Of a stretch of DNA of 64,000 nucleotides, positions 4,038 to 57,108 are shown in pieces. Both the position numbers and the translations under genes were made by a program. The stretch spans positions 124,001 to 188,000 of the forward strand of contig JACPTQ010000017.1 of the NCBI GenBank assembly GCA_016192705.1, written 5' to 3'. This stretch comes from Deltaproteobacteria bacterium. GTDB taxonomy: Bacteria; Myxococcota; JACPTQ01. A model generated the notes under the pieces. It saw nothing but the letters and a program-made list of their open reading frames with translations. It made no database searches and was not told the DNA's origin. The stretch's first letter is position 1; each line of letters opens with the position of its first letter.

Positions 4038-5915
4038 TTACGGCTGAAACTGTTGTCGCGCCTGCTTGACCGGCTCGACCAGCTTTTCGTCACGCGGCCC
4101 CGCGACGAGCTCCTCGGGCGAAAACCCGGTGAAGCTGATCGCGCTCGTCCAGGTCGCGCGGCCTGGGGCGCTGCAATTGAAGGAATTACCCGAAGTAGCG
4201 AACACGCAAGTCCCCGTGTAGTCGCCGTTTCGGCAAATGTAACCGCTGCCTTCAACGTACGTGCACAAGTTGCCATAGGTGGGTTGAGTCCACCGGCATG
4301 TGCCCACCTCCATGGAGTGCTCATTGCGCCAGCTTGCGCTGAGCTCCGGGTCTGAGATGTGGACCCAGTAGTTTCCCGACAGGTTGAGCGTGCCGGTCAA
4401 ATGGAACGTCTCGACCTCGGGGTCGGTCTCGGGGCCGTTGTCGTAGATGTTGGAGTCGATGATGCGCGAGTCGGGGTGCAGGGTGTCGGCGCGCACGATG
4501 ACGCCGCGCGCGTTTCCTTTGATGTTGCAGCTTTCGACTTGCACGAGCTCGGGCGCTTCGACGAGAAGGCCGTACTCGGTGTTCCCTGTGATGTCGCTGA
4601 AGCGGAAGACCGGGTCCCGCCAGGTGGTCGGTGCAATCGGCGGCGTTGTGGGGCTCGCGGGGCAGCTGACCGGCGGATGGGTTCCCGGGTTCTGTCCCGT
4701 CACGCGGATGCCGCGCTTGTTTTTTGCGACCGTCGAGTCTTCCATTTCGAGCACAGCGCTGTCGATGTCGAGCCCCGTGCCGAACTTCGCAACCAGCGCG
4801 CGCAAGAAGTAGCTCTTCGCGCCGCTCCTGCTGTAGATCCCGACCCCGTCGCCGAGGCCGGTCACCACCGAGTCTTCGACCGACGTCGAGCCGCCGAGGA
4901 TGCGAACGCCGTTTTCGGAGTTGTTGATGTCGACGCCGCGGAGCGTGGTGTCGTCATTCACCGTGAGCGCGACGGACGCCTTTTCGATGAAAACTTTTTC
5001 GAGCGTGTTGCTCGCCCCGTTGAGGACGAGACCGAGCCAGCCTTTGGTTGGCTTATACGCACTAAAAAGAACCGGTTGGTCGATGGCGCCCACGGCCTGC
5101 AGCGTTCCGTTCACGGTGAGCGAAACGTTTCCGTAGGTCCCCGTGCCGAGGTAGTTGCCGAGGACATGCACGCCCGGCTTCACCGTGAGGAGCGTCCCCT
5201 CGCTCACGACGGTCGGCTCGAGCAGAACGACTTCGCACTTCTCCCACGTTTGCGACGTCGTGACCTTTCCTCCCTGGATGTACTTTCGCCCCGCAACACA
5301 CGGCCGACTCTCGACGGGGCGCAGGCACTGGAAGTTCGTGCCCTGGCATTCGAGCTTTACCGTGAACCGCCCAGTGCCGGTGTCTTCCCAACTCGAAAAC
5401 GCCAAGAGGTACTTTCCGTCCTTTTTGATCGTGATTGTCGGGAGCTCGGCGCTGAGGCTTGTGTCGGTGTCGTCCGCGTAGGCGAGGCGTTGGCCCGGCC
5501 TTTTGAGCGACACGAACGGGCCGTGTAGGACGGCGACGGTATCGAGCGCGACGCCGGGATCGACGCCGACGGCGTCATCGCCCGCGGTTGCCGTGAGTGT
5601 CACCTTGATGACGGCGCCTTTTTTTGCCTGAAAAACGTAACCGTAGCCGCGCGCGCGCGGGTCGAACGTCCCTTCGATTTCGCTTCCGAGCGCGATGTCT
5701 TTTGTGAGGCGTATCCCTTTCAAGAGATCAGCCTTCGCGTCGTCGTCGCTCAGAATCTGCTCGAACGGGAATTCCGATTTACCGCCGTTGCCGAGTTCGG
5801 CATCGCCAATGTCTGCCCCGCACGACCCGAGAAGCGAAAACGAGACAACCCACGCGCACGGAAAAGCGCGCCTCCATGATGGAACGGTACGGTCTGGTGT
5901 TGCATTGCCTTTCAT
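4038..5915 (-). CDS. Lipoprotein with pre-peptidase-like and right-handed beta-helix regions
   Basis: 625 residues. A long basic signal peptide ends in lipobox L-L-G-S-C at about residue 33. Residues about 60-170 look like a pre-peptidase C-terminal (PPC) type beta-sandwich, with the run DGKYLLAFSSWEDTGTGRFT, known from secreted proteases and surface proteins. From about 200 to 560 there are repeated short beta-strands (for example VSLTVNGTLQAVG, VALTVNDDTTLRGVDINN, GVRILGGSTSVEDSVV) typical of parallel beta-helix or pectate-lyase-like folds. A Cys-containing C-terminal part follows (CRNGDYTGTC). The beta-helix fold often binds or cuts polysaccharide, but no catalytic residues are clear. Likely an outer-membrane or surface lipoprotein. 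Confidence 0.85.
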   Translation of the reverse strand: MKGNATPDRTVPSWRRAFPCAWVVSFSLLGSCGADIGDAELGNGGKSEFPFEQILSDDDAKADLLKGIRLTKDIALGSEIEGTFDPRARGYGYVFQAKKGAVIKVTLTATAGDDAVGVDPGVALDTVAVLHGPFVSLKRPGQRLAYADDTDTSLSAELPTITIKKDGKYLLAFSSWEDTGTGRFTVKLECQGTNFQCLRPVESRPCVAGRKYIQGGKVTTSQTWEKCEVVLLEPTVVSEGTLLTVKPGVHVLGNYLGTGTYGNVSLTVNGTLQAVGAIDQPVLFSAYKPTKGWLGLVLNGASNTLEKVFIEKASVALTVNDDTTLRGVDINNSENGVRILGGSTSVEDSVVTGLGDGVGIYSRSGAKSYFLRALVAKFGTGLDIDSAVLEMEDSTVAKNKRGIRVTGQNPGTHPPVSCPASPTTPPIAPTTWRDPVFRFSDITGNTEYGLLVEAPELVQVESCNIKGNARGVIVRADTLHPDSRIIDSNIYDNGPETDPEVETFHLTGTLNLSGNYWVHISDPELSASWRNEHSMEVGTCRWTQPTYGNLCTYVEGSGYICRNGDYTGTCVFATSGNSFNCSAPGRATWTSAISFTGFSPEELVAGPRDEKLVEPVKQARQQFQP

Positions 5916-6172: not shown

Positions 6173-7300
6173 GTGATTCGCACAATCGGAATGTCGGAGG
6201 GGCATTCGCGCATTCACAGCGTGGGGTATTTCGTGCCTGAGCGGCGGGTCGCGTCGGAAACGATTGAGCGCGATTTTCAATTTGGCCGCTTTGGGATGCC
6301 GCCGGGGTCGCTCGAGCGGATCACGGGGATTCGCGAGCGTCGCGTGTCGGAGGAGGAGATGCGGCCAAGTGAGCTCGCGGTGCGGGCGTGCGTCGACGCA
6401 CTCGAGCGCGGGCATCTGCGCGCGGCGGATGTTGACGTCCTCATCTATGCGGCGGTCGGGCGCGATTACATGGAGCCCGCGACGGCGCACGTGATCCAGA
6501 CGCGGCTCGGCGCCGATGAGGCGTATGTGTTCGACGTGTCGAACGCGTGCCTATCGATGATGGATGGGATTCTCATCGGCGACTCGCTTATCGCGATGGG
6601 GCGCGCGCGTGTCGCGCTCGTGTGTGGCGGCGAGCCGTCGGGCGAGGCGCTGCGCGTTATGGAGAGCGAGATCGACAGCGTCAAGTCGACCGAAGAGTTT
6701 CGCGCGCGGTTCGCGATGTTCACGCTCGGCGAGGCGGGCGCGGCGGTCGTGCTCGAGGCGAAGAGGAAGAAAACAAAAAGAGAAACCACGGCAACACGGA
6801 AATACGGAGAAGATCACGGAGGTGGATTTCGGAATCGCGGGACGGCGGTTTCGTACATTCCATTTGCGGAGGCGGCGGCGGGCTTTGTCGCGTTTGAGTT
6901 TGCGTCGCGCGGCGAACATCACGAGCTGTGCACGATTCAGAGCGACGGCAAGACGCCGATGCTCACCGACAGTCGTCGACTTTTGAGGGAAGGGATCGGG
7001 CTCGCGGCCGAGGGGATCGACCCGATCCTCGAGCGTTCCGGGTGGCGGCGCGGCGACATCGACCTCGTGATTCCGCATCAGGTTTCGGTCGGGGCGAACG
7101 TCGAGCTCATGAGCGCGCTCAGACTGCCAGAGCATTTGGCGCACGTGGTCGTGACCGATTTTGGAAATACCGCGTCGACGACAATCCCCGTGACGCTGGC
7201 GCTTGCGGAGCGCGCAGGGAAACTCCAGGCGGGGATGAAGGTGTTGCTTGTTGGGGTCGGCTCCGGTGTGTCGGTTGGGCTCGCGACGCTCATTTGGTGA
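6173..7300 (+). CDS. 3-oxoacyl-ACP synthase III-like ketosynthase (KAS III)
   Basis: 375 residues from GTG 6173, preceded by GAGGG at 7 nt. The thiolase-fold Cys-His-Asn triad is visible: Cys in DVSNACLSMMDG (about residue 126), His in LVIPHQVSVG, and Asn in DFGNTASTTIPVTL. The C-terminal GVGSGVSVGLATL is typical of the family. KAS III enzymes join an acyl-CoA to malonyl-ACP or to a second acyl chain; relatives such as OleA do head-to-head condensation, so the substrate cannot be read off. It is first in a three-gene operon with a GH3 enzyme (6-nt gap) and a diiron oxidase, which argues for a dedicated pathway, not general fatty-acid synthesis. Residues about 197-221 (AKRKKTKRETTATRKYGEDH and following) are encoded by an inserted dispersed repeat, kept in frame. 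Confidence 0.88.
   Translation: MIRTIGMSEGHSRIHSVGYFVPERRVASETIERDFQFGRFGMPPGSLERITGIRERRVSEEEMRPSELAVRACVDALERGHLRAADVDVLIYAAVGRDYMEPATAHVIQTRLGADEAYVFDVSNACLSMMDGILIGDSLIAMGRARVALVCGGEPSGEALRVMESEIDSVKSTEEFRARFAMFTLGEAGAAVVLEAKRKKTKRETTATRKYGEDHGGGFRNRGTAVSYIPFAEAAAGFVAFEFASRGEHHELCTIQSDGKTPMLTDSRRLLREGIGLAAEGIDPILERSGWRRGDIDLVIPHQVSVGANVELMSALRLPEHLAHVVVTDFGNTASTTIPVTLALAERAGKLQAGMKVLLVGVGSGVSVGLATLIW
6761..6835 (+). repeat. Dispersed ACGGA-type repeat inserted in frame in the KAS III gene
   Basis: A purine-rich stretch with cacggcaacacggaaatacg, then ggagaagatcacggaggtgg. It is unlike the surrounding GC-rich codons, and it looks like the CACGGA-rich dispersed intergenic repeats seen in several environmental bacterial phyla. 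It adds about 25 basic, low-complexity residues without breaking the frame. The identity of the repeat family is from memory. Confidence 0.6.
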
Positions 7301-7306
7301 ACAAGC

Positions 7307-8818
7307 GTGCTGTTTGAATCGCTCGAGAGACTTGTCACCGCGCGGTATCGGCGGCGGCTCGGGTTGTTGCGCACCGGGCAGGCCGAAGCTGAGGCGCGGT
7401 TCATCGCGCGTTACATGGAGGCGCTTCGGGGTACGGCGTTTGGGCGCTCGCACGAATTCGCGAAGGTGCGGACGCCGGGCGATTTCGCGCGAGCGGTGCC
7501 GGTGCGGGCGTACGACGAGTTTTTGCCATGGATCGAAAGGACGTTGGATGGCGCGCCCGATGTGCTCGTGCCGGGGCGACCACGTTATTACGGCGTTACA
7601 ACGGGGACGACCGGCGGCGAAAAGCGAATTCCGGTTACGGAGCGGCTGACCGACGCGGCGAAGGCGGGCTTTCTGACGTTGCTCACGGCGGCGCTCGATG
7701 ATGTGCGGCGCGCGCATCCGCACGCACCGTCGGTGATCGGCGGGAAGTTGCTTGTGCTAGGTGCGACGATGCCGCTTCGTCCGGAGCGAGATGGTGTCCT
7801 CGCGGGCACGATGAGCACGATCGCAATTCGCGAGCGGCCGTGGTGGCTGCACCGCAAAATCGTCCCAGGCAACGAGCTCGACGAGCTGCCGACGTGGGAA
7901 GAGAAACTCGAAGCGCTCGCCAAACTCACGTCCCGTCTCGATGTGCGCGTCGTCGCCGGAATGCCGCCCTGGCTTCTTGCGCTGTTCGAGCGGCTCGTCG
8001 CATCGCACGGCGGCGCGGCAATTCGAACGATTTGGCCGAAACTCGCGCTTCTCCTTCACGCCGGGACTTTCATGCGCCCCTACCGCGACCGACTCGCGCA
8101 TCACGTGATCGCTGCGATCCCCTTTCGCAACATGTACAGCGCGACCGAAGCGGTCTTCGCGATCCAAGACACGAACGACGAAGGTCTCTTGCCGCTCGTC
8201 GACGAAGTTTTTATCGAACTCATTCCGGTCGAATCGGACGACGCGACTTCGCCGCCGCGCATTCCGGTTTCGCAGGCCGAGGTTGGCGTCGAGTACGCCG
8301 TTGTTTGCACATCGTGGACGGGCCTCGCCGCGTGCCGCATGGGCGACACCGTTCGCGTTGTATCGCGCAATCCCGTGCGGGTGGTGGTGACGGGGCGAAC
8401 GCGGCAACGCGCGAGCATCGCGGGCGAAAAGGTGACGATCGACGAAATCGAGCAGTCACTCATCGACGTCGCCGGTGAGCTCGGGTTTTCGTTCGCCGAA
8501 TTCGTCGTCGTTCCCGAGGGGCCCGATGCCGCATCCGACGGTCGTCCGCGACACCATTGGTTCATTGAGTTTCGCGCGACAGTTCCACTCGACGTCGTTC
8601 GACGCATCGCGGCCGCGCTCGATCGCGCGCTCGCCTCTCGCTCGGCGACCTACCGCGTCCGCCGCGAAGGGTCGACGCCGGCGCTCGGAGCGCCTGTCGT
8701 GACGCGGATTCCCGAGGGTTCGTTCGTCGCATGGCTCGCGCGCTCGAATCGGCAAGGCTCGCAGAATAAGGTTCCGCGCATCATTGAGGAGGTTCCCGAT
8801 GAGTTCAAACTTCATTGA
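7307..8818 (+). CDS. GH3-type acyl-adenylate-forming enzyme
   Basis: 503 residues, GTG start at 7307, 6 nt after the KAS III stop. It matches the GH3 (auxin-responsive promoter) branch of the ANL adenylate-forming superfamily. The N-terminal helices contain ARYMEALRGTAFGRSHEF. The phosphate-binding loop is YYGVTTGTTGGEKRIPVT at about residue 95. A second adenylate motif, NMYSATEAVFAI, lies near 270, and the C-terminal ASIAGEKVTIDEIEQSLI is the swivel segment. Plant GH3 enzymes join acyl acids to amino acids; bacterial members are little studied. Here it probably activates an acid made or elongated by the neighbouring ketosynthase. Its last 20 nt overlap the next gene, implying translational coupling. 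Confidence 0.88.
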   Translation: MLFESLERLVTARYRRRLGLLRTGQAEAEARFIARYMEALRGTAFGRSHEFAKVRTPGDFARAVPVRAYDEFLPWIERTLDGAPDVLVPGRPRYYGVTTGTTGGEKRIPVTERLTDAAKAGFLTLLTAALDDVRRAHPHAPSVIGGKLLVLGATMPLRPERDGVLAGTMSTIAIRERPWWLHRKIVPGNELDELPTWEEKLEALAKLTSRLDVRVVAGMPPWLLALFERLVASHGGAAIRTIWPKLALLLHAGTFMRPYRDRLAHHVIAAIPFRNMYSATEAVFAIQDTNDEGLLPLVDEVFIELIPVESDDATSPPRIPVSQAEVGVEYAVVCTSWTGLAACRMGDTVRVVSRNPVRVVVTGRTRQRASIAGEKVTIDEIEQSLIDVAGELGFSFAEFVVVPEGPDAASDGRPRHHWFIEFRATVPLDVVRRIAAALDRALASRSATYRVRREGSTPALGAPVVTRIPEGSFVAWLARSNRQGSQNKVPRIIEEVPDEFKLH

Positions 8819-9473
8819 CCAGTTAAAAGCCGCGCTCGCGCCCGAACAGATGCGGCTTTGGCAGACGCGCCTCGCGAAAGCGCTCATTGCCGACGACAAG
8901 GCGCCACTCTCCATTTGGCGCGCCTACCTTTGGGAGTCGTACCACTACGTGAAGCACAACGGCGTCAACCAGGCGCTTGCCGTGCTGCGAACGCCGGTCA
9001 CCGACAAGGAGCTTCAAATCCGCTACCTCAAACACGCCGCCGAAGAGATCGACCACGATTTGCTCTGCCTTCACGACCTTGAAAAGATCGGCGTCGCGCG
9101 CGAAACCGTCATCGCCTCGCGCCCACTCCCCGAGACGGCCGCCTTTTCGAGTTTCCTTTACGACTTCGTGATGCGCGAAAACCCGATCGGCCGCCTCGGT
9201 TATTCGTATTGGGCCGAGGGTTCGGCCGATTACGGCGACGTCCTCATCCCGCGCTTGAAGCACCACTTCGGCTTGCCCGACGACGCGATGCGATTCGTTG
9301 TCGAACACCGCGATCTCGATCGGGGCCACAAGGCGGCCTGCGAAAAAACGATCGAGAAGTTCGCGCTCAAGAAAGAAGACCAGGAGGCGATTCTTTATTT
9401 CGGCGTCGCGACCTGCCACCAGTTTTTTTACGTACTCGAAGCGATGTACGACCGCGCGATGCGCGAGGCGTGA
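8799..9473 (+). CDS. Haem-oxygenase-like diiron oxidase (TenA/UndA/CADD-type fold)
   Basis: 224 residues from ATG 8799 (GAGG at 7 nt). An earlier in-frame ATG at 8784 would lie deeper inside the GH3 gene. The all-helical protein carries a metal-ligand set like that of haem-oxygenase-like diiron oxidases (HDOs): E46 (LWESYH), E83-x2-H86 (EEIDHD), E140 (WAEGS), and H170-x3-D174-x2-H177 (HRDLDRGH). The last spacing equals that of CADD as I recall it. Known HDOs do oxidative decarboxylation, N-oxygenation or C-C cleavage (UndA, SznF, BesC). The substrate here is unknown; an acyl or aminoacyl product of the two upstream enzymes is the natural guess. Thiaminase II (TenA) is an alternative, but it uses a Cys and not this ligand set. 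Confidence 0.82.
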   Translation: MSSNFIDQLKAALAPEQMRLWQTRLAKALIADDKAPLSIWRAYLWESYHYVKHNGVNQALAVLRTPVTDKELQIRYLKHAAEEIDHDLLCLHDLEKIGVARETVIASRPLPETAAFSSFLYDFVMRENPIGRLGYSYWAEGSADYGDVLIPRLKHHFGLPDDAMRFVVEHRDLDRGHKAACEKTIEKFALKKEDQEAILYFGVATCHQFFYVLEAMYDRAMREA

Positions 9474-9518
9474 GGGCGCGCTGGGCGACGTTCGTACGCG
9501 ATCGACTTCCTGCTTTTC

Positions 9519-10169
9519 TTATTTCGCACGGTCGAATCCCCAAACGAACCGGACGTGCTTGCCGCCGCTCGGTCCGTTGTTCTTGGGAAGGTGCAGGTCC
9601 AGCGCCAATTGCGCGACGGAAGCGCTCACGATTCCACGATGTCGGAAACAAATCGTTCCGCGAACTTCGTATACCCACACCGGACCGCGGACCCAGATGC
9701 TCTTGTAAGCCGGCCGCCAAACCCGGCGCGTGCACTGGCCGCGCGTGCCCCACATATCACAAACCTGGATTTCGCCCGTTTTGCGACGCTGCTCGATGAG
9801 GCCAAAAAACTGCTTTCGTATCGGCGGATCGGACCAAAGTTCGGCTGTCACGATCGGCTCCAGATCTGGTGCTCTGAGAGTCGTTTGTGCCTGTTTCAAA
9901 TCGATGGCGTCTAAATCGCGCAGAGTCAAGTCAAAGCAGACCCGCGAGGAATCCGCTGTTATGAGCGCCGCATGGTCGGACAGAGACTCCGGGGGCAACC
10001 CGCGTTGAACTTCGATACCGGTCCGCAGCTTGATAATGCGGTTGGATTCAAGCGAGCCCGCCGCAATCGGATTCCGGATCCAGATGTCTGGGCTAAGGCT
10101 AACGCAAGCGATCGTGGTGACAACAGCAAAAGCCAAGCACCAACTCATCTTTTTGAGGTATCTGGACAT
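9519..10169 (-). CDS. Hypothetical exported or lipoprotein
   Basis: 216 residues, ATG 10169 without an obvious ribosome site. The N-terminus has a hydrophobic signal (MSWCLAFAVVTTIAC) that may be a non-canonical lipobox (T-I-A-C). The mature part has four further Cys residues (VCFDL, VCDMWGTRGQC, ICFRH). No family recognised. Codon use is less GC-biased than the neighbours, and the gene borders a duplicated, rearranged zone, so recent acquisition is possible. Confidence 0.6.
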   Translation of the reverse strand: MSRYLKKMSWCLAFAVVTTIACVSLSPDIWIRNPIAAGSLESNRIIKLRTGIEVQRGLPPESLSDHAALITADSSRVCFDLTLRDLDAIDLKQAQTTLRAPDLEPIVTAELWSDPPIRKQFFGLIEQRRKTGEIQVCDMWGTRGQCTRRVWRPAYKSIWVRGPVWVYEVRGTICFRHRGIVSASVAQLALDLHLPKNNGPSGGKHVRFVWGFDRAK

Positions 10170-10187
10170 TTCGCAAGGTTCCGTCAG

Positions 10188-10540
10188 ATTCTAACACCTA
10201 TTGATACTTCTGTTGCGTTACAGAAGCCCTTCGGTGCATGACGGAAGTGGTTCCAGGCGTGACGGACGCGAAAAACGGCGTGATTTTTGGCTAAGTTGGC
10301 GTGAGGGAGCTGTTTTCCCGAGGTCACTTCGAGCTACAAGTTGTTTTTGTTAGATTTTTTGGCATATTTGAGTGACCGTGGCGGCGCCTCGTTCGCGTGA
10401 GCCCGATGAAGGCGATGGCGAGACCGAACGGCCCGGCAGCCGATGAGGGCGCCGTGGTTTCGCATCCGCACGCGGCAACCGAGCCTTTTTCGAGCGGGTT
10501 GCTCGCAGGGTTCGAACCATTGCCGGTTGCGCCGGCATCC
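10188..10540 (-). repeat. Duplicate copy 1 of the MYXO-CTERM gene 3' region
   Basis: This 353-bp segment matches 12857-12900 plus 16744-17093 (copy 2, split by the transposon) with only scattered differences, a few short indels and one tandem-repeat block missing here. It starts at attctaacac and ends at gccggcatcc in both. Copy 1 and copy 2 lie in the same orientation on either side of a 2.3-kb island (10541-12856). Confidence 0.88.
10324..10540 (-). pseudogene. Truncated MYXO-CTERM tail fragment
   Basis: Encodes only the last ~70 residues of the 16883-19444 protein: a Gly/Asn/Ser linker, the ACGCETTAP cysteine motif, a short hydrophobic helix (FGLAIAFIGLTR) and the Arg cluster. There is no start or signal peptide, so it is a relic of the duplication. 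The last residues differ from the intact copy (HGHSNMPKNLTK). Confidence 0.8.
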
Positions 10541-10637
10541 ACGTTGACGCATTGAAATGCCCGCGCTCGCGACCCAACGTTCTTCGGTCCTTCTCTGTCC
10601 TTCTATACCGCCGATTGAGCGACACTCAAATCGCCCA

Positions 10638-10763
10638 TCCGTAGACGTGTCTCTTGAATCCGCCGAAACCGCTTCAACATCGCACCTCGCCCCCTCTTCT
10701 CCGCGCCGCCTGCTCACGTCGCCACCCCACCACAAACGACGAACCCATTTGCGCTTCCTGTCC
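10638..10763. repeat. 126-bp perfect direct repeat, left copy
   Basis: Identical to 11951-12076 over 126 bp as far as I can read. It begins tccgtagacgtgtctcttga and ends gcgcttcctgtcc. It sits 45 bp beyond the 3' end of the NmrA-like gene. Perfect identity at this length implies a recent duplication or active recombination. Confidence 0.92.
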
Positions 10764-10808
10764 ATGGCCCAGCGAAGTGCCCGTGACGCGACGCGGGCGA
10801 GCGCGACG

Positions 10809-11950: not shown

Positions 11951-12076
11951 TCCGTAGACGTGTCTCTTGAATCCGCCGAAACCGCTTCAACATCGCACCT
12001 CGCCCCCTCTTCTCCGCGCCGCCTGCTCACGTCGCCACCCCACCACAAACGACGAACCCATTTGCGCTTCCTGTCC
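11951..12076. repeat. 126-bp perfect direct repeat, right copy
   Basis: Second copy of 10638-10763, same orientation, 1,313 bp away. It directly abuts the ZnuA fragment. Confidence 0.92.
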
Positions 12077-14099: not shown

Positions 14100-14128
14100 T
14101 TGACAACAGACATTTTATGTATTACTCT
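14100..14128 (+). promoter_or_regulatory. Transposase promoter, leaderless start
   Basis: Perfect -35 TTGACA (14100-14105), 17-bp spacer, weak -10 TACTCT (14123-14128). The predicted start falls at or just before the ATG (14136), so the mRNA would have almost no leader. Confidence 0.5.
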
Positions 14129-14135
14129 TATTCTC

Positions 14136-14972
14136 ATGAATACACTTTCCCGTGAAAGACAGGTTTCGGTCGTGAAGGCGCTGGTCGAGGGTTGTTCTAT
14201 GCGATCGACGGCGCGGCTCATGAACGTGGACCGCGAAACCGTTGGGACATTACTCAAGCGTGTCGGTGACGGATGCGCCGACCTCTTGAACGAAACCATG
14301 CGCGACCTTCCGTGTAGTCGACTTGAACTCGATGAGCTATGGGCGTTCGTCGGCAAGAAACAGCGACACGTCAAGCGAACCGACGATTACGCCGAAGTCG
14401 GCGACACATGGACGTTTGTGGCAACGGATGCAGAGACGAAGCTGGTTCCGTCGTTTGCCGTTGGAAAGCGTTCCGAAGAAACCACAAGGGCGTTTGTCGC
14501 CGACGTGGCGAACCGCCTTCGCGGCCGCATTCAAATCAGTACCGATGGCCTTCGCTCTTACATTGAAGCGATTAGCGCCTCGTTTGGCGGTCGAGTTGAT
14601 TATGCACAGGTGATTAAGTCATACGAAGCCGAACCGATCGGGCCGGGGAGGTATTCGCCGCCCAAAGTCACCGGAATCGAGAAGACGCCAATCTTCGGTG
14701 AGCCGCTTGAAGAGTTCGTGTCGACGAGTTTCGCCGAACGAAATAACCTCAACGTCCGAATGGGCGTGAGGCGATACACGCGGCTTACCAACGCCTTCTC
14801 GAAGAAACTTGAGATGCACATTGCCGCGACGGCACTGCACTTTGCGCATTACAATTTTGTGCGCCGACACCAGACGCTTCGCGTGGCTCCGGCGATGGCG
14901 GCTGGCGTTACAAAAACGCTGTGGTCCGAGGAGGAACTGCTTGCCGCCGTGCTCGACGGGGTAAGGCCGTGA
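14136..14972 (+). CDS. IS1-family DDE transposase
   Basis: 278 residues from ATG 14136. An N-terminal helix-turn-helix (ARLMNVDRETVGTLLKRVG) is followed by the catalytic core: first Asp in LELDELWAFVGKKQRHVK (about residue 68), second Asp in QISTDGLRSYIEA, and Glu in STSFAERNNLNVRMG. The MGVRRYTRLTNAFSKK and HYNFVRRHQTLRVAPAMAAG segments are typical of the single-ORF IS1-like transposases (ISMhu11-type group). No frameshift is needed, unlike classical IS1 InsA-InsB. The 8-bp target duplication and GG-starting ends fit. The gene ends in GTGA, overlapping the next start by 4 nt. Confidence 0.92.
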   Translation: MNTLSRERQVSVVKALVEGCSMRSTARLMNVDRETVGTLLKRVGDGCADLLNETMRDLPCSRLELDELWAFVGKKQRHVKRTDDYAEVGDTWTFVATDAETKLVPSFAVGKRSEETTRAFVADVANRLRGRIQISTDGLRSYIEAISASFGGRVDYAQVIKSYEAEPIGPGRYSPPKVTGIEKTPIFGEPLEEFVSTSFAERNNLNVRMGVRRYTRLTNAFSKKLEMHIAATALHFAHYNFVRRHQTLRVAPAMAAGVTKTLWSEEELLAAVLDGVRP

Positions 14973-47906: not shown

Positions 47907-48613
47907 CGGCGCGTTGCGCGTTCGCGACCGACAATGAAAGCGAGCGCTGCGTCGAGAGCCGGCTTATGGCGGCGCCACGCGATGGCGATCGGCTCGCGGA
48001 TGCACTCGAGCGTGATGACCGGGATTCGACGTTCGACACCGAAGTAAGTCCCGAGCGAGCCGGGTGTCGGATAGCCAATGCTCGCTTTGACCGCGTAACC
48101 GTTCGCGCAGCCGATTGCGCGCGCCCATCGGCGGGCCGGGCCGTCATAGTTCACGAATCCAAACGGCTCGTGGAGCGTGAGGATGTAGAGGTTCGGTTTG
48201 TGCTTGGCGGATTGGGCGATGCGACCAACTCTGAGAAAACGATCGACGAGCGCGAGGAGGGCTTTTACCTCGGGCTCGCTGGCCGGTTCATTTCCGGGGC
48301 AGTATCCCGGTCGGACATTTCGTCCCCAATTGCGGGACGGGAAGTTGCGGTTCAAGTCGACCCCCCCGGCGTTGTCTTTTTTTTTTCGCACGAGGCCGTC
48401 GGGATTCGCGGCGTCGACAATGATGACGCGCACACCGCGCGGCGGGCGCTTCGCGAGTTTCTGCGCAAAGCGGCGCGCCAAACGCGGGCCGAGGGGTTCG
48501 TCGCCGTGAACGCCAGGAATGACGATGAGCGTTGTCGCGCCTCTGCCGATCGTTGTTGTCGTGATGGGGCGACCCTCGACACTTCGGCCAATCACGCCGT
48601 TCTTCGCTTTCAC
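47903..48613 (-). CDS. M14 metallopeptidase, MpaA-like
   Basis: 236 residues, GTG 48613, overlapping the stop of the giant TPR gene (GTGA). Zinc carboxypeptidase features: H-x2-E in VIPGVHGDEPLG, Asn/Arg in GGVDLNRNFPSRNWG, third zinc His in YILTLHEPFGFVNYDGP, catalytic Glu in PVITLECIREP. The size and lack of a signal peptide fit murein-tripeptide amidase MpaA or related cytoplasmic peptidases, which act on recycled peptidoglycan peptides. Coupling to the TPR gene is unusual for such an enzyme. Confidence 0.9.
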   Translation of the reverse strand: MKAKNGVIGRSVEGRPITTTTIGRGATTLIVIPGVHGDEPLGPRLARRFAQKLAKRPPRGVRVIIVDAANPDGLVRKKKDNAGGVDLNRNFPSRNWGRNVRPGYCPGNEPASEPEVKALLALVDRFLRVGRIAQSAKHKPNLYILTLHEPFGFVNYDGPARRWARAIGCANGYAVKASIGYPTPGSLGTYFGVERRIPVITLECIREPIAIAWRRHKPALDAALAFIVGRERATRR

Positions 48614-51600
48614 GTGCGCCGCGACCGAAGGAGCTGCAGCCCGTCGGGTGAACCCGCAAACTTCACGAGATCCGCAAGGGCCTCGTTGGCGAGGAGGAGT
48701 GTCCGCCGCTCGTCGGACACGGAGGAGAGCTGCGTGACGCTTCGTTCGAGGCGGGCGATGATGTTGAGTGCCGACGACAAATCGCCCGCGAGAGCAAGCC
48801 CAACGCGATTGGCGGTCGCGTGGCGGGCAAACGCAAAGGTTGTAAAGCTCATCGAGTCCACGGCAGATACATAGGCCTCGGCAAACGGCGCAATTTGCTT
48901 TCGCACGGCGCGCGGGATGAGCGCCTTGAGTCGCTTCAGGAAGTGCGCGACGCGGCCCGGATCAACGCCAACGATGTCGACGTCGGACGCGCACAACTTG
49001 CAAATGAGCTGAAGGATTTCCTCGACGCTGCGCGGTCCCAAGTGTTCAACCGCGGTTCCCCCGGCATTAACGAGTGCCGCCGCGCGTCCTGCGATGAACC
49101 GCCAGTCGATCGCCGATGCGGACGTGGCGACGGAACGTGCAAGCACCAGCGTGGGCGGCGTCGTGGCGCCAAAAGAGAAGCGTACGGTGGGGTCGTTGGT
49201 GATGGCGACGGCGAGCGCGCGGATGCCAGCGGCTCGAAGAATTCCTTGGACCTCGGCGGGCGCTGCGTACGGTTCGACGTCGCGCGTGCGTGTGTTGGGG
49301 ACGAGGTCGGCGAGGTAGGGCCCGGCGATGCGCAGCATTTCCTGAGCGGGGCCGTGATCCGCGGGGTGGACGAGGATCGGCGGAATCGAGCCGTCGCGGA
49401 AAACGCGGCGTGCGACCGCCTGGATGTCCTCGCCGCGTGGGGGCGCCACCGTGCCCAAAGCAGGATTCAGGAATGCGGCCACCGCACCGTGAAACGCGGC
49501 GCGCCCCGGTTCGTTCGATGCAAACAGCGATGCCAATCGGCGGTGCGCTTCAGCGTCAAATGGAATCGCGTCGAGCCGACGTTCGAAGAGCGCGATGGCT
49601 TCGTCGCGATTCGCGCCGCTGTCCGCGAGCAACGACGCGAGAAGGAGTTCGGCTTCAAGGAGCGGTTCGAGCGTGACTGCACGGCGCAGGGCCGCGAGCG
49701 CACGAGGGATCCGATTGGCGTTGTTGGGCTCCGCGATGATGACGCGTGCGAGCTCGAGAAGTTCGCGTGCGCCGAGTGACGTGTCGCGCTCGCCTGAATC
49801 AAGGGCCTCAGCCATGTAACGCTCGGCCAGTTCCGTATCGCCGGTTCGCCGGGCAATCTCGGCGAGCGTGTGAAGTCCTCGTGGATCACCTGGGCGGAGA
49901 CGGCGAAACTCGTTGAACGCGTCATGCGCCGCCGCGAGACGATCGGCCTTGAGCGCCAGATCGCCCCACGACGCAAAAAAATCAGCGTCGAGGATGTTGG
50001 CGGCAAACTTCCCGGCGATCGCTTCACCGACTTCCAGTGCCGCCGTCGTGTCACCTTTCTCGACGAGGACGAAAAATAGGCGACGGTGCGGAAGCCATTC
50101 ATTCTCGCAAAGTCTTATCGCACGACGGTACGCGGCCTCGGCGCCGTCAAGATCTCGCAGGAGGTCGTGGTTTATTTCGCCGATGCGCATGAGAAGCGCG
50201 CACGCACGCGCGTCGTTCGGTGCGAGTGCGAGAAGCCGATCGAGCGTCGCCTGCGCGTGCCGACCGCGATTGGCCGCGACGTGAAGCTCGACGAGAGCGG
50301 TCAGAGCTTCGTCGTGTGTTGGGTCAAGCTCGGCAACCTCTTCAAACAACTCGACGGCGTCCGAGAGGCGCCCCGATTCCCAAGCTGCTCTCCCGACTGG
50401 GAAGAGCACGCGCGCGGCGTGGACCGGGTCGGACACGCGAAGAATGGCGACAGCGTGCCGACTCGCCTCGACGGCGCCGGCCCGATCGCCAACGTGCAAT
50501 CGGACCCGCGCACTCGCCTCCCAAAAAGTGAGACTCTGTTCGGGCGACGCAGAATCCAGCGCGGCGTGGGCAATATCAAGTTGGACAAGCGCCGCACCGT
50601 CTCGGCCCGCGCGCTCTTCAACGGATGCCCAAAGGAGACGCTCTTCGAGCGAGAGTTTTCGCACGGTTTCAAGTCTTGCGAAACAGCTGGCTGCCATCGC
50701 GTCGCCAGCACGCGCCGCTCGTTCACCGAGGATCGCCAGGGCTTTCGGTTCGAGCGGATCATTTTCGAGGACCTGACGCAGGAAATGCGCTTCATCTTCG
50801 CTGCGGCCAGATTCAGCCGCGTACCGGGCCGCATCGAGGAGGGCCGATGCGCGCAGAGCGCCCGTTGGGGCCTGAGCCGCGATCGATGCTTTAAGGTCGG
50901 TGAGGGCGTTCCAGTTCTCGAGGCGAAGGAGGAGCGCCGTGAGGCGGTCGATAACTGTGCCGTTGGTCGGGTCGATGGCGGTGACGCGCCGATACAAGGG
51001 TACCGCGGCTTGCGGGCGTCCGAGTCGTTCGTCGAGAAGCTCAGCCATCGCCAACATTGTGTGTGCGCGATCGGCCGGTTCGGTTTGTCTGTCGAGGCGG
51101 CGGCAGTGAATTTCGTAGAGGTCGTCCCAACGGGCCTGATCGGAAAGAAGGGCCGCGAGGGGTTCGAACGCACGGGTGTCGCCTGATTTCCACGCTTCGC
51201 GGAACAGTTCCTCCGCGTCGGTTTCGGCGCCGCGACGACGTAAGACTTCGCCCAGGCGGATGCGAGCACCAGAGGTTGATGGGCTCAAGCCGTCTTCGGT
51301 AATTCGCTTTCGCAGCGCTGCTTCGGCCTCTTCGAGTCGCCCCAGCGAGATCCAAACGTCGTTTCGGAAATCCCACGCTTCGCGAGAGTTTGGGGTCAAG
51401 GTGTGCGCTTCATCAACCGCCTCGAGCGCACCGGTCGTGTCCCCGAGTTCGAACGAGAGTCGCGCAAGCTCAACGAGGCGGAGGCTTCGCTCGTCGAGGC
51501 GCGGCGTCGCGTCGATCTCCTGTCTCAAAAGGGCGGCGGCGGCAATTCGATCACCCTGTTCAAATTTCATTCGCCGAAGGGTTCGTGCCGCACCGACGCA

Positions 51601-54600
51601 CTGCGGGTTGATCCGAAGCGCTGCGAGAAGGTCGCGCTCAGCGTCGTCGCGCCTGTGGAAGCGATTCAGGAGAATTCCCCCGCGCGCAACGAGCGCTTTC
51701 GCGCGAAGAAGCGGTGCTTCAAGTAGAGCTAAGATGCGGTCGAGTCGATCGAGGTCGTTCTGGTCGTCCGCGGACGTGCCGACGGTGTCCAAGAACAGAC
51801 TGAGCGTTGCGTCGTCGGTCGGGTCCGAGAGGACGAGGCCGAGCGCGAGTTGCTTCGCCTCCGCGTGACGACCAGAAGTCTGGTAAGCGGTTACCAGCGA
51901 GGCACGTGCGTCGTGGACCGATGCGGCGTCGGTCGAAAGGGCGGCGACGGTTTCAAGCGACGTCGTTGCGGTCGTGGCATCACCCGCCGTCAGAGCGAGT
52001 TGCGCGAGGTGTTTGTGCGCCTCGATGTTGTGCGGTTCGATGGTCAGAATCGCGCGCAAGTCGCGAATGGCGGCGTCGGGATCGTTCAGCGATGTTGCGA
52101 GCAAATGCGCGCGTTCACCGAGAATCGCCACGCGTTCCGAAGGGGGCGCAACCTTGCACCACGTTGCCGCGACTTCGGCTGCCCGTTCCGCAAGTCCGGA
52201 TTGGACGAGAAGTGAAAAGGCTCGCGACAACGGCTTTGTCCACGTTGGGTCCGCTTCATGGGCGAGAGCGAGGAGGTCCGCCACCTCGGTCGCCTCTCTG
52301 TTCGCACGAACCGCGGCCTCTGCGGCGTCCGCGAGAATCGCCGCGCGGTCACGCCCCGTATAGAGTTCCGCGCGAGATGCGAGGAGCGCCGCGCAAAGTT
52401 CATGGTCCGGTTTCGATTCGGCGAGGGGAATGGCCCTTGAGAAATAACCGTCGACAACGGATGGTTCGAGGGAAGTTTCGCGTGCGAGCTGGGCCGCGCG
52501 CGCCCACGCTTTTGCGGCGGCGACCGCGTCGTCGAGTGGCGCTTCAAGGAAAGTCGCGACGGCGATTGTGATTTGGAGAGCCGCGTCGGGAGGGAGCGTC
52601 TTGTCTTTCGGTGGAGCCGAGTCGAGATGGGCGGTTGCGTGCGACATCCACGCCTGGAGGCGGTCAAGGAGAGCTGGTGTCGCGGGGCTTTCGGCAGAAC
52701 GGATGGCGCGAGCGCCGCGGAGAAGAAGTTCAGCAAGTCGGTCGGTTGATGACAGGCCTTGCGCGATCTCGGCGATCAGTGCGTCAAGGAGGGCCTCGCG
52801 CGCTCTGGGCGCGACGGTGATGAGCGACGCCAAGACGGCAGCGGCGTCATCCAGCGCCTGATTTCGCGACTTGGGATCCTCCGTTGGGCACGACAAGATG
52901 TGCGCGTGAAACGCGGCGCCGGCGCGTGTCAGAAGATCGATTTCGGTGGCGTCAAGCGCGGACCCGTCGCGGCCGGAAATCGACGCCGCCATGGCGCGCA
53001 GCCACGGCGCAATTTCGGTGGTTGCATCGGGTGTCCCAACGGCCATCAGCAACTCAGCCGCTTCGACCAAACGTCCGGCGAGGCGCAAAACCCGGGCGCG
53101 CCGCAAATCAAACGCAGGGTCGGCTGTGGGAAGGGTGACGGAGCTCGGAACGGCGTTCGTGAATGCGACGCACGCTGCGTCGGCGTTTCCGCGGTCGTCT
53201 GCGATTTCACCCAACCGTTGCCACGCGAGCGCCCGCTCTTCGGCGGATCCGAGACCGTCGTGATCGACAAGGCGCTTGAAAAACCCCTCGGCCTCGTCGG
53301 GCTCGCCTTTTGAAAGATGGTACTCGCCAAGAAGAAGAATGAGGGGTGGGTGGTTGGATTCGAGTTCAAAGACGCGATGGAGGATTTCGAAGGCGCGTTC
53401 GTCTTCGTTGAGGTTCTGGAGCGCCGCGCGGCCCGCGTCGAACAACAGATCGCGTTCATCGCGGGTTGCCTTCGCCGAGCCGCTCATTCTCACGGCCGTG
53501 TCGACGTAACGTGACCACGAGCCGGTCCGCTCGTACAGCGGGCGCAACGATTGCCACAGCGAGAGATCCGTGGGCGACGCTTGGGAGGCTCGCTCGAGGG
53601 CGCCAATCGCCATTTCGAGATCGCCGAGTTGCTGGGCGGCTTCGGCCTTCCCAACGAGTGCCTTGGTCGCTTGGTCAAATGCGCGGTTTGAATCGAAAAG
53701 CGTTGCCGCTCGTTCAAACAGATCGGCGGCTTCCGCGAATCGGCCGTCTGCAACGGCCAGGCGCGCCAGTGCCATTCGGGCCAGCGCCGCCGCTCCGTCC
53801 GCGTCGATGGCCGCGCGATATTCCACCTCAGCCTCTGGTAACCGCCGAAGCGCCTCGAGGATCTGGCCACGCCGCACGCGGATTTCGGCTGGGTCGACGT
53901 TGTGCGGCAAAGCAGCGTCGGAGCCGCGGGAGGTTGCCACCGCGCTTTCCGCGACATCTTTTGTAGCGACGAATCGATCGAGCGCCACCAGGCTCTCATT
54001 CCAACGCTCCGCCTCGACGAGCAGCTCAGAGAGGAGACGCCAGGCGGGTGAAAAAGCGGCGTCGCTGGCGACCGCTTGTTCGAGTCTCGCGATGGCGTCC
54101 GCGAGCCCACCCGGCCGCTGTCGAAGGCTCTCGGCCTCGCGGGTCAAACGCACTGCTTCGCCCTCATGCCGAGCCAGGGCGATCTCGGATTCCGGCGCGG
54201 ATGCGGATTCGGGAGCCGATGCGGTTGCGGGCGCGGATGTGGGAGCGTGGACGTCGGCGCCGGCAAGCACGCGGCCTTCGAGGAGCTTTGAGAGAAGCTC
54301 GGCTCCGCCGTCGATGCCCGGATGAAGGTCGAGGGCCCGGCGACAGGTCGTGATCGCGGACGCTGCGTCTCCCATCCGGTGGGTGATTTCAGCCTTGAGG
54401 AGGAAAATCTGCGCGGCCTTGGCGGTTCCCGCCGCGTTTCGAATCGCGGTCTCAAGCGTTTCGAGCGTCTTGGCCGCTGTCGCGACGTCATTTCGATCGA
54501 GCGCAATGCGAACACGGGCCTCGAGCGCCTCGGGATCCGATGCGACCAAGGGATTTGCGAGGAGCGCCTCTGCCTCGTCGACACGCCCCATTTTCAAAAC

Positions 54601-57108
54601 GACTCTCGCACGTCGGGTCACGATGTGCGGCCGCTCATCGGCGGCGACAACATCCGAGAGGCCGTCGAGGGCTCGGGCCGCAAGTGCAAGATCGCCCGTC
54701 TCTTCGGCGAGATTTGAGAGCATTTCGAGCGCGGCCCGGTAACGGCCATCGCAGTTGAGGGCTTCCGCGAGGAGCCGGATCGCGCCCGTCGAGTCGCCCA
54801 GCCGGTGGGCGAGAACGATGGCGGCTTCGTGCGCGACTCTTGCCGCTTGCGATCCTTCGCACACCCGAAACCAATCGCGACTTGCTGACACAAACGAACG
54901 CCATTCGCCAAGCTGTTGGAGCAAACGCGCGCGGGCCTCGTGGACATCGCGGCGAGTCGGGTCGGCCTCGAGCGACAACGTGAGATAACGCAGCGTTTCT
55001 CGCTCGTCGCCGTGTGACGCGGCAACCGTGAGCGCCGCCTCAAAAAGAACGTCCGCGCGAACGGTGTCGTTCGTTTCGTCCTTGACGCTTTGAGCGAGGG
55101 CTTCCGCGACCTCGCCGATTCGGCCGGTCAAGCGGAGGAGACGTGGCCGCAGCTTGAGCGCAGAGGGCTCCGTCTTAATGACAGCGAGAATGTTGTCGAT
55201 GGCCGTCAGCGCTTCGTCCGCGGCCTCAATTTGGTCGGGGTGGCCGAACGGTGCGACGTCCGCGTCAGACGAGAGAATCCGCGCGAGGCGAAGTTCGGCG
55301 TCGACCCACTCGCGAACCAAATTGGATTGGGCTTCATTGGGTTTTGCGTCGACCGCTCCCTTCTCGCGACGCGGATCGCACTTCTGGATCAGTGCGTAGA
55401 GCCACTGCCTCGCTGTTTTGTTGTGGCCGAGCCGCTCCGCGAGCGCCGTTCCGCGCCGAAGCGATTCGATGATATTTGCCTCGGACGCGTCTCCGAGTCT
55501 TGCCTGAGATTGAATAAGCTGTTCGACCTCATGAAACGCCTCGGGCAATCGGCCGGCCTGCTCGAGAGCGTCGACCCACGTGATGCTGGCCGCGAGCCAC
55601 AGCGACTCGTCAACTCCGTGCGCTGCCGGAAGGAGTGGGTCGAGGAGGGCGAGCGCCGCGGCAGAATCGCCGGCGCCAAGCCGCGCGCGCGCTTCACCCC
55701 ATGTGGCACGCGGAGCGACCGATTGAACGGTGCGGGCACGACTGAAACTCTGAGCCGCATCTTCAAAGCGCCCCTCGGCCAATAACGCTTCGCCAAGCTC
55801 AACGAAGTCCTGACCGCGCTCGTCCGTGGTACGCGTTGGAAGCGCGAGAAGGGCTTCGAGCGCGCGGATTTGCGTGCGTCGGTCGCCGGCGTCTCGCGCT
55901 GCACCGAGCAGATCCAGGAGGACCGAACCGTTTTGGGGCGTTTCGCGATGGGCCCGCGCGAGAATCTCGACGGCCTTCGCCGGGACCAAGTAGCGAATGG
56001 AGCGGGCGGCGGCCAAGAGCGCGTGAAGCCCATCAACGACTTCGCCGCGGGCAAACCACAGGTCCGCCATCTTGAGAAACGCCTCGCACGCGCCGCGATG
56101 GTCGATCTCTTGCTCACGCGTCAGCGCCAAGATGTTCCACGCCCAGATCTGCGAGTCGTCGACGGCGAGAGCACGCTCCGAAACGCGCAGAGCTTCTTCC
56201 AAGCTGCTGCCGTGCGCGACGTCGAGCCACGCACGCGTTGACGCGAAGTCGGCGGCATCGCGCGCCTTGGGAAGGTCCACCGAGCGCACGCGCGGGTTTT
56301 CGCGAAGCAGGGCGTCGAATCCCTCGGGCAACGGCGCGGCAAATGGCGTGGCAACCGCTCGCGCACCATATGGGACGGGTGGAACGAGCGCCGGCCCAGC
56401 CGCAAACTCGGCAACAAAGTCGGCGCCGTCGCGTCGCAGTCGGTGAACAACGACGCCCGTCACGCTCGGGATCTTAAAGCCGAAGCGCGGGACGAGCGAC
56501 TTCACCGCGAGTGCGAGCGGGGCGATGCGGATTGAGGCGGGACCATCGAACGAAACATGCGGGGCGATGGGAGCGAGAAGGCGTGCGAACCATTCAAGCA
56601 GAGAGACCGGCAGCCATGCGTAAAGAGCGGGGTCTGATGCAACGACTCGAATGGACGCGCCATCCGCGGCCAATCCCAAGCGCGAAGTCAGAACCGCCTC
56701 GCGGGATTCGATTCGCCACCGGGATTCAACGAGCGCGCCGTGCGGGCCGAGGGTCACCGCGGTTTCGCACGCTGTTCCTGAGTTCTCCGCGGAATCGTCC
56801 CCTGCGTTGAGGATGTGCGTGCCGAACGCACGCGCGATGATTCGCAAGTCGACGCGCACCAAGTCGCCGCGCCGCGTTTTGAAAGCGGAGAGCCCTTGGC
56901 CAGCGGCGCTCGCGTGGGCGCCCTCGGGGAACGCAACTTCGAGGTTTGTGATTTCGAGCCAGGGGTGAACGAGAGTCAACGGGAACCGGACAATGGCTTT
57001 GCCGTGGCGGAAGCTGAGCGTGGGAGCGGGGTTGCGCGCGGTCGGTCGAGAGGCCGCGGAATCCGGCGTTGACGTCGATGTTTCTGGTGGCGGCGGTGAC
57101 ACGTCCAC
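48610..57108 (-). CDS. Giant TPR-repeat protein (2,832 residues)
   Basis: GTG 57108, 3 nt after the upstream gene. Residues 1-300 form a non-repeat N-terminal domain (TLSFRHGKAIVRFPLTLVHP; NLEVAFPEGAHASAAGQGLS). From about 300 to 2,550 there are dozens of TPR-type helix pairs (for example YRAAIDADGAAALARMALAR, AYRRAIRLCENEWLPHRRLF). A low-complexity Ala/Pro/Glu/Ser linker lies at about 954-976. The last ~180 residues are a distinct domain (SVEEILQLICKLCASDVDIV; FARHATANRVGLALAGDLSS) recalling the C-terminal part of M48-like peptidase domains, but I see no HExxH. No signal peptide or TM is evident. A cytoplasmic scaffold is likely, as for other long myxobacterial TPR proteins. The open frame over 8.5 kb makes it certainly coding. 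Confidence 0.93.
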   Translation of the reverse strand: MDVSPPPPETSTSTPDSAASRPTARNPAPTLSFRHGKAIVRFPLTLVHPWLEITNLEVAFPEGAHASAAGQGLSAFKTRRGDLVRVDLRIIARAFGTHILNAGDDSAENSGTACETAVTLGPHGALVESRWRIESREAVLTSRLGLAADGASIRVVASDPALYAWLPVSLLEWFARLLAPIAPHVSFDGPASIRIAPLALAVKSLVPRFGFKIPSVTGVVVHRLRRDGADFVAEFAAGPALVPPVPYGARAVATPFAAPLPEGFDALLRENPRVRSVDLPKARDAADFASTRAWLDVAHGSSLEEALRVSERALAVDDSQIWAWNILALTREQEIDHRGACEAFLKMADLWFARGEVVDGLHALLAAARSIRYLVPAKAVEILARAHRETPQNGSVLLDLLGAARDAGDRRTQIRALEALLALPTRTTDERGQDFVELGEALLAEGRFEDAAQSFSRARTVQSVAPRATWGEARARLGAGDSAAALALLDPLLPAAHGVDESLWLAASITWVDALEQAGRLPEAFHEVEQLIQSQARLGDASEANIIESLRRGTALAERLGHNKTARQWLYALIQKCDPRREKGAVDAKPNEAQSNLVREWVDAELRLARILSSDADVAPFGHPDQIEAADEALTAIDNILAVIKTEPSALKLRPRLLRLTGRIGEVAEALAQSVKDETNDTVRADVLFEAALTVAASHGDERETLRYLTLSLEADPTRRDVHEARARLLQQLGEWRSFVSASRDWFRVCEGSQAARVAHEAAIVLAHRLGDSTGAIRLLAEALNCDGRYRAALEMLSNLAEETGDLALAARALDGLSDVVAADERPHIVTRRARVVLKMGRVDEAEALLANPLVASDPEALEARVRIALDRNDVATAAKTLETLETAIRNAAGTAKAAQIFLLKAEITHRMGDAASAITTCRRALDLHPGIDGGAELLSKLLEGRVLAGADVHAPTSAPATASAPESASAPESEIALARHEGEAVRLTREAESLRQRPGGLADAIARLEQAVASDAAFSPAWRLLSELLVEAERWNESLVALDRFVATKDVAESAVATSRGSDAALPHNVDPAEIRVRRGQILEALRRLPEAEVEYRAAIDADGAAALARMALARLAVADGRFAEAADLFERAATLFDSNRAFDQATKALVGKAEAAQQLGDLEMAIGALERASQASPTDLSLWQSLRPLYERTGSWSRYVDTAVRMSGSAKATRDERDLLFDAGRAALQNLNEDERAFEILHRVFELESNHPPLILLLGEYHLSKGEPDEAEGFFKRLVDHDGLGSAEERALAWQRLGEIADDRGNADAACVAFTNAVPSSVTLPTADPAFDLRRARVLRLAGRLVEAAELLMAVGTPDATTEIAPWLRAMAASISGRDGSALDATEIDLLTRAGAAFHAHILSCPTEDPKSRNQALDDAAAVLASLITVAPRAREALLDALIAEIAQGLSSTDRLAELLLRGARAIRSAESPATPALLDRLQAWMSHATAHLDSAPPKDKTLPPDAALQITIAVATFLEAPLDDAVAAAKAWARAAQLARETSLEPSVVDGYFSRAIPLAESKPDHELCAALLASRAELYTGRDRAAILADAAEAAVRANREATEVADLLALAHEADPTWTKPLSRAFSLLVQSGLAERAAEVAATWCKVAPPSERVAILGERAHLLATSLNDPDAAIRDLRAILTIEPHNIEAHKHLAQLALTAGDATTATTSLETVAALSTDAASVHDARASLVTAYQTSGRHAEAKQLALGLVLSDPTDDATLSLFLDTVGTSADDQNDLDRLDRILALLEAPLLRAKALVARGGILLNRFHRRDDAERDLLAALRINPQCVGAARTLRRMKFEQGDRIAAAALLRQEIDATPRLDERSLRLVELARLSFELGDTTGALEAVDEAHTLTPNSREAWDFRNDVWISLGRLEEAEAALRKRITEDGLSPSTSGARIRLGEVLRRRGAETDAEELFREAWKSGDTRAFEPLAALLSDQARWDDLYEIHCRRLDRQTEPADRAHTMLAMAELLDERLGRPQAAVPLYRRVTAIDPTNGTVIDRLTALLLRLENWNALTDLKASIAAQAPTGALRASALLDAARYAAESGRSEDEAHFLRQVLENDPLEPKALAILGERAARAGDAMAASCFARLETVRKLSLEERLLWASVEERAGRDGAALVQLDIAHAALDSASPEQSLTFWEASARVRLHVGDRAGAVEASRHAVAILRVSDPVHAARVLFPVGRAAWESGRLSDAVELFEEVAELDPTHDEALTALVELHVAANRGRHAQATLDRLLALAPNDARACALLMRIGEINHDLLRDLDGAEAAYRRAIRLCENEWLPHRRLFFVLVEKGDTTAALEVGEAIAGKFAANILDADFFASWGDLALKADRLAAAHDAFNEFRRLRPGDPRGLHTLAEIARRTGDTELAERYMAEALDSGERDTSLGARELLELARVIIAEPNNANRIPRALAALRRAVTLEPLLEAELLLASLLADSGANRDEAIALFERRLDAIPFDAEAHRRLASLFASNEPGRAAFHGAVAAFLNPALGTVAPPRGEDIQAVARRVFRDGSIPPILVHPADHGPAQEMLRIAGPYLADLVPNTRTRDVEPYAAPAEVQGILRAAGIRALAVAITNDPTVRFSFGATTPPTLVLARSVATSASAIDWRFIAGRAAALVNAGGTAVEHLGPRSVEEILQLICKLCASDVDIVGVDPGRVAHFLKRLKALIPRAVRKQIAPFAEAYVSAVDSMSFTTFAFARHATANRVGLALAGDLSSALNIIARLERSVTQLSSVSDERRTLLLANEALADLVKFAGSPDGLQLLRSRRT

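Follow-up and report, generated by a model that had tools for sequence, protein, structure and literature searches.

What might an OleA-like ketoacyl synthase, a GH3 enzyme and a diiron oxidase make together when their genes form a single operon? The question is raised by a locus within a 64 000-nucleotide stretch of DNA (the window; positions 124,001 to 188,000 of contig JACPTQ010000017.1, forward strand, assembly GCA_016192705.1) from a Deltaproteobacteria bacterium of the phylum Myxococcota. The host genome comprises 5.2 Mb in 88 contigs and the nearest relatives available for comparison are at the level of the phylum. A first-pass annotation had described three translationally linked genes, and their coordinates, strand and spacing were confirmed.

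6173–7300, plus strand: OleA-like ketoacyl synthase III (KAS), 375 amino acids, GTG start
7307–8818, plus strand: GH3 acyl-acid amide synthetase-like protein, 503 amino acids, GTG start
8799–9473, plus strand: haem-oxygenase-like diiron oxidase (HDO), 224 amino acids, ATG start at 8799
8786–8792, plus strand: ribosome-binding site GAGGAGG of the HDO gene, within the GH3 gene and 6 nt before the ATG at 8799, read from the sequence

All three genes lie on one strand, with a gap of 6 nt between KAS and GH3 and an overlap of 20 nt between GH3 and HDO; the placing of the HDO start at the ATG at 8799 is backed by the GAGGAGG at 8786–8792. The arrangement is conserved, each protein is assigned to a family and the active-site residues are present. 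Our reading is that the trio may be a compact, scattered operon for an oxidized N-acyl amino acid, either an aminolipid or a lipid signal, to which we give a probability of roughly 0.5.

The conservation of the cassette carries much of the argument. Two HDO peptide patterns were run against the genomes of 84,980 bacterial and archaeal species, a form of scan that misses divergent members, and five loci were obtained. The complete trio, ordered and on one strand, is present at three of these (L049, L050 and L051), all in metagenome-assembled genomes of Planctomycetota, with identities to the window proteins in global alignments of 50–53% for KAS, 43–45% for GH3 and 68–71% for HDO. Among 274 genomes from the class to which Aestuariibacter belongs, a fifth full trio (L152) was found in gammaproteobacterium G624, where the identities are 34, 35 and about 46%, respectively, and where the GH3 and HDO genes share 4 nt when an upstream GTG is taken as the start. 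Co-occurrence across genomes had been proposed as a check on the first-pass idea, and every genome in which a trio-type HDO was detected has the three genes side by side (five of five genomes, in three phyla). The other four cassettes keep the KAS triad and the HDO ligands without change; the letters of the GH3 loop vary. The flanking genes differ between loci: hslUV-like genes at L050, a YhhQ-like gene together with an MMPL gene at L049, and at L051 an MMPL gene with an upstream gene unlike that of L049 (some of these names were assigned by eye).

Among 195 genomes of the window's phylum neither a trio-type HDO nor a trio was found besides that of the window, and the stretches analysed around GH3 proteins of 31–33% identity in this phylum contain no match to KAS or HDO. 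The remainder of 392 Planctomycetota and of 398 Pseudomonadota genomes yielded no trio-type HDO, and at the level of the order the two other genomes available near G624 yielded no second copy. In trees the trio HDOs form one clade (support 100/99), as do the trio GH3 proteins (81/88). The cassette is rare but kept together, by descent or transfer. This retained co-occurrence is strong evidence that the three proteins work together.

The KAS matches Pfam families PF08541 (ACP_syn_III_C; 2.3e-20) and PF08545, and its nearest solved relatives are the OleA structures 3row and 3s21, which we take to be those of Xanthomonas OleA.

6548–6550, 7076–7078 and 7166–7168, plus strand: KAS catalytic residues C126, H302 and N332, respectively, invariant in all five cassette KASs
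6473–6478, plus strand: E101-P102 of KAS, aligned with the OleA general base Glu117-Pro

The Cys-His-Asn triad reported in the first-pass annotation is therefore present. The Glu117-Pro pair of OleA belongs to a mechanism unique to OleA homologues (PMC7064751). It is found in five of five cassette KASs and in the additional OleA-like proteins that the planctomycete hosts carry, and the position reads M-P or F-P in two FabH-like proteins of the window's genome. In a tree the cassette KASs side with OleA against FabH (support 100/100) and stand apart from the canonical OleA clade; the tree does not firmly unite the five in a single clade, the position of L152 being uncertain. Identity as FabH was ruled out by the Glu-Pro marker and the tree. 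In two of the planctomycete hosts, genes resembling OleB and OleD are located close to this additional OleA (neighbours named by eye), so the cassette KAS is a paralogue in those hosts. The cassette KAS probably joins two acyl-coenzyme A molecules (acyl-CoAs) instead of working as FabH.

In the GH3 protein the N, M and C domains were all found above the cut-off (PF03321 at 2.7e-26, PF23571 and PF23572), and the TTGTTGGEKR loop described previously is where it was said to be.

7598–7627, plus strand: GH3 motif I, TTGTTGGEKR, residues 98–107, the letters of which vary among cassettes
About 8132–8149, plus strand: GH3 motif II, MYSATE, recognizable
About 8347, plus strand: GH3 motif III, ending in GD, recognizable

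From these domains and motifs the assignment to the GH3 enzyme class is secure. The sole NCBIfam match is the OlsH model NF052613, for which the protein scores 252 bits and the cut-off is 620; two other cassette GH3s that were tested score 254 (L049) and 187 bits (L050). The OlsH of Singulisphaera links free fatty acids to ornithine with ATP and Mg2+ (PMC12493201). Scores of 187–254 bits against 620, together with the neighbouring genes, rule out OlsH membership for the cassette enzymes, and by its sequence the window GH3 is a distant relative of OlsH.

The HDO matches Pfam family PF14518 (Haem_oxygenas_2; 3.5e-18). Its closest solved relative is PDB entry 3dde, a Shewanella protein of unassigned function, which it matches at 4.6e-30 with 36% identity over the aligned part. 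Modelling of the structure, as had been suggested previously, gave a haem-oxygenase fold: an AlphaFold model calculated from six homologues has a predicted local distance difference test score (pLDDT) of 90.3, and Foldseek returns 3dde first (template-modelling score up to 0.89), followed by CADD, TenA, UndA and PqqC. We therefore predict the haem-oxygenase fold with high confidence. Identity as CADD or p-aminobenzoate synthase was rejected, with TIGR04305 at 30.9 bits against a cut-off of 200.

9045–9047, 9054–9056, 9216–9218, 9306–9308, 9318–9320 and 9327–9329, plus strand: HDO ligands E83, H86, E140, H170, D174 and H177, respectively, predicted from alignment

The diiron ligand set of the first-pass annotation also holds: the six residues, three His and three carboxylates, are present, are invariant in homologues and align with those of a crystallized diiron enzyme, the mangotoxin oxidase MboA. 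MboA is the best characterized sequence match of the HDO profile (1.2e-5); UndA was not found by the sequence profile. In the MboA crystal structure the ligands are Glu86, His89, Glu143, His172, Asp176 and His181 (PMC13185094). These correspond in order to E83, H86, E140, H170, D174 and H177, with the spacing of the final His differing by two residues, and D87 of the HDO aligns with Asp90, an occasional extra ligand in MboA. MboA desaturates the C-terminal residue of a tripeptide, the substrate carboxylate binding Fe1, and HDOs are known to work on basic amino acids (PMC13185094).

Beyond the cassette itself, the nearest HDOs, at about 33–39% identity, adjoin genes for FeeM-type N-acyl-amino-acid synthases. 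Such neighbours are present in a cyanobacterial metagenome-assembled genome (L052, just below the Pfam cut-off), in Aestuariibacter (L053), in planctomycetes (L090, L091 and weakly L092) and in myxobacteria (L096, L097 and weakly L094); a more remote HDO (L153) also adjoins a FeeM-type gene. Judged from these gene neighbourhoods, members of the HDO family seem to operate at sites of N-acyl amino acid synthesis, which agrees with the GH3 partner in the cassette. A DUF3419 gene comes after several of the cousin HDOs, with a penicillin amidase gene next in planctomycetes.

As separate observations, the set FeeM/HDO/DUF3419 recurs in gammaproteobacteria, planctomycetes and myxobacteria, at L053:9358–11777, L090:7580–10274, L091:7400–10115 and L094–L097 around 8200–10800. 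The host of the window carries two strong DUF3419 genes (C14:56548–57612 and C73:53740–54690; 225 and 214 bits), both distant from the HDO and outside the cassette, which might serve in betaine-lipid synthesis or provide a partner in trans. In the gammaproteobacterial loci L130, L131, L132, L134 and L151 a remoter HDO lies between AMP-ligase-like and short-chain dehydrogenase-like genes (named by eye).

A three-step route may be proposed from these features. Judging from its active-site residues, the KAS would condense two acyl-CoAs head to head to give a 2-alkyl-3-oxo acid. The GH3 enzyme, if it behaves as its family does, would use ATP to adenylate this or another long acid and attach it to an amino acid through the amine, thereby standing in for OleC, the adenylating enzyme that follows OleA in the olefin and beta-lactone pathways. 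The fold, the ligands and the cousins suggest that one iron of the HDO would then bind the N-acyl amino acid by its free carboxylate. Since the end product of GH3 enzymes is an amino-acid amide, the HDO most likely works on the amino-acid part, where oxidation with O2 could take the form of desaturation, C–C cleavage or decarboxylation. The first-pass annotation had envisaged a chain built by KAS, activated by GH3 and then oxidized, cleaved or decarboxylated by the HDO. A chain that is built, activated and oxidized fits our data; the synthase is OleA-like, using two acyl-CoAs, rather than an ordinary FabH, and the oxidation of the N-acyl amino acid is likely to alter its amino-acid portion and not to cleave or decarboxylate the fatty chain. 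A fuller version, in which a phylum-crossing cassette combines OleA-type condensation, a GH3 amide and rewriting of the side chain or carboxylate by the HDO to give alpha-branched oxidized N-acyl amino acid lipids, an undescribed class, is possible and is offered more tentatively.

Several points weigh against this proposal. The products of OleA are unstable beta-keto acids and the cassette is without an OleD-like reductase. Ser115, essential in OlsH (PMC12493201), is replaced by Thr or Gly in the cassette GH3s according to our reading of the motif. The similarity between the HDO and MboA is weak. The co-occurrence amounts to five genomes, with L049 and L051 near-identical at the locus. Finally, a repeat insertion could impair the KAS of the window.

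6758–6877, plus strand: in-frame KAS insertion of about 35 residues, lacking in the other four cassette KASs

The core of this insertion (6763–6822) is a dispersed genomic repeat with four further copies elsewhere in the host genome, and the AlphaFold model of the window KAS is too poor (pLDDT 52.6) to bear on the insertion or on any other claim made here. One may ask whether such a mobile repeat has left the operon non-functional in this organism, though intact elsewhere, given that the repeat-derived extra residues are confined to the window KAS. The insertion is nevertheless in frame and without a stop, all of the catalytic residues are kept and the GC content at third codon positions (0.77) equals that of the GH3 and HDO genes, and we judge local decay to be improbable.

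Two other explanations concern the product. The HDO may be a UndA-like decarboxylase or desaturase of the fatty chain supplied by the OleA-like KAS, with the GH3 enzyme activating or capping the chain; alkenes, ketones or modified fatty amides would then result. UndA is among the structural matches and also carries the three-His/three-carboxylate set (PMC13108848), and the enzyme of the acyl chain comes first in the operon. This scheme leaves the GH3 enzyme without a clear role, however, and it sits poorly with a sequence profile that finds MboA and not UndA and with cousin HDOs that adjoin N-acyl-amino-acid synthases and not fatty-acid genes only; we think it unlikely. Alternatively, the cassette might make a variant ornithine lipid, with the GH3 enzyme as a divergent OlsH that joins an ordinary fatty acid to ornithine or lysine and with KAS and HDO merely tailoring the chain or the head group. 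This idea is favoured by the lack of any NCBIfam match for the GH3 protein other than OlsH and by the known activity of HDOs on basic amino acids (PMC13185094). The scores, far under the OlsH cut-off, do not, and while planctomycete OlsH and OlsI share an operon (PMC12493201), no OlsI-like hydrolase or OlsG-like methyltransferase was seen among the cassette neighbours, as judged from sequence and gene calls. We consider an ornithine lipid quite unlikely. An oxidized N-acyl amino acid remains our preferred product.

The neighbours of the operon in the window, a beta-helix protein (4038–5915) and a protein without a Pfam match (9519–10169), are unrelated and are encoded on the minus strand; the operon therefore consists of only the three genes. 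Promoter and terminator scans gave no signal above chance. Elsewhere in the window there are an IS1-type transposase gene (14100–14972; PF03400, 1e-8), identical 126-nt direct repeats (10638–10763 and 11951–12076, 1313 nt apart) that bracket an NmrA-like gene, a 44-nt repeat (89%) at 10188 and 12857, and a gene on the minus strand (48610–57108) for a protein of 2832 residues rich in tetratricopeptide repeats.

Each of the enzyme families is already known and the novelty lies in the combination. In the literature searched, which did not include most subscription journals, we found no description of OleA and GH3 in one pathway or of the trio operon, nor of the FeeM/HDO/DUF3419 set or of DUF3419 with haem-oxygenase proteins. 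Of more than 10,000 HDOs, only about a dozen have been assigned a reaction (PMC13108848), and the cassette gives an HDO a minimal and well defined set of partners. If the proposal is correct, OleA chemistry would reach beyond hydrocarbons and beta-lactones to amides, bacterial GH3 enzymes would gain a second lipid pathway, and a class of substrate would be suggested for the structural-genomics orphan 3dde and the FeeM-linked relatives.

The cassette may be compared with several known systems. With the OleABCD olefin and OleACD beta-lactone pathways (PMC7064751) it shares a first enzyme of OleA type that carries the Glu-Pro general base and, after it, an adenylate-forming enzyme; it differs in having GH3 for OleC, no OleB or OleD, and an added diiron HDO, and the planctomycete hosts have canonical ole genes at a separate site. 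With the OlsH/OlsI ornithine lipid pathway (PMC12493201) the likeness is a bacterial GH3 enzyme and, probably, ATP-dependent N-acylation of an amino acid, whereas the cassette GH3 falls far under the OlsH cut-off, has no OlsI or OlsG seen nearby and is partnered by KAS and HDO. The cassette HDO and the mangotoxin enzyme MboA (PMC13185094) have the fold class in common, and the six ligands and the neighbouring Asp align; the setting of MboA is a tripeptide, the redox partner MboB and ATP-grasp ligases, in place of KAS and GH3. The Aestuariibacter relative of 3dde sits in the FeeM–HDO–DUF3419 setting and not in a KAS–GH3 operon. A logic like that proposed here is seen in the acyl-oxazolone tyz/oxz systems (PMC10404671), in which an N-acyl amino acid is made and its amino-acid part is then oxidized in an O2-dependent manner; there the enzymes are an N-acyltransferase, a flavin oxidase and ThiF, and in the cassette they are an OleA-like KAS, GH3 and a diiron HDO.

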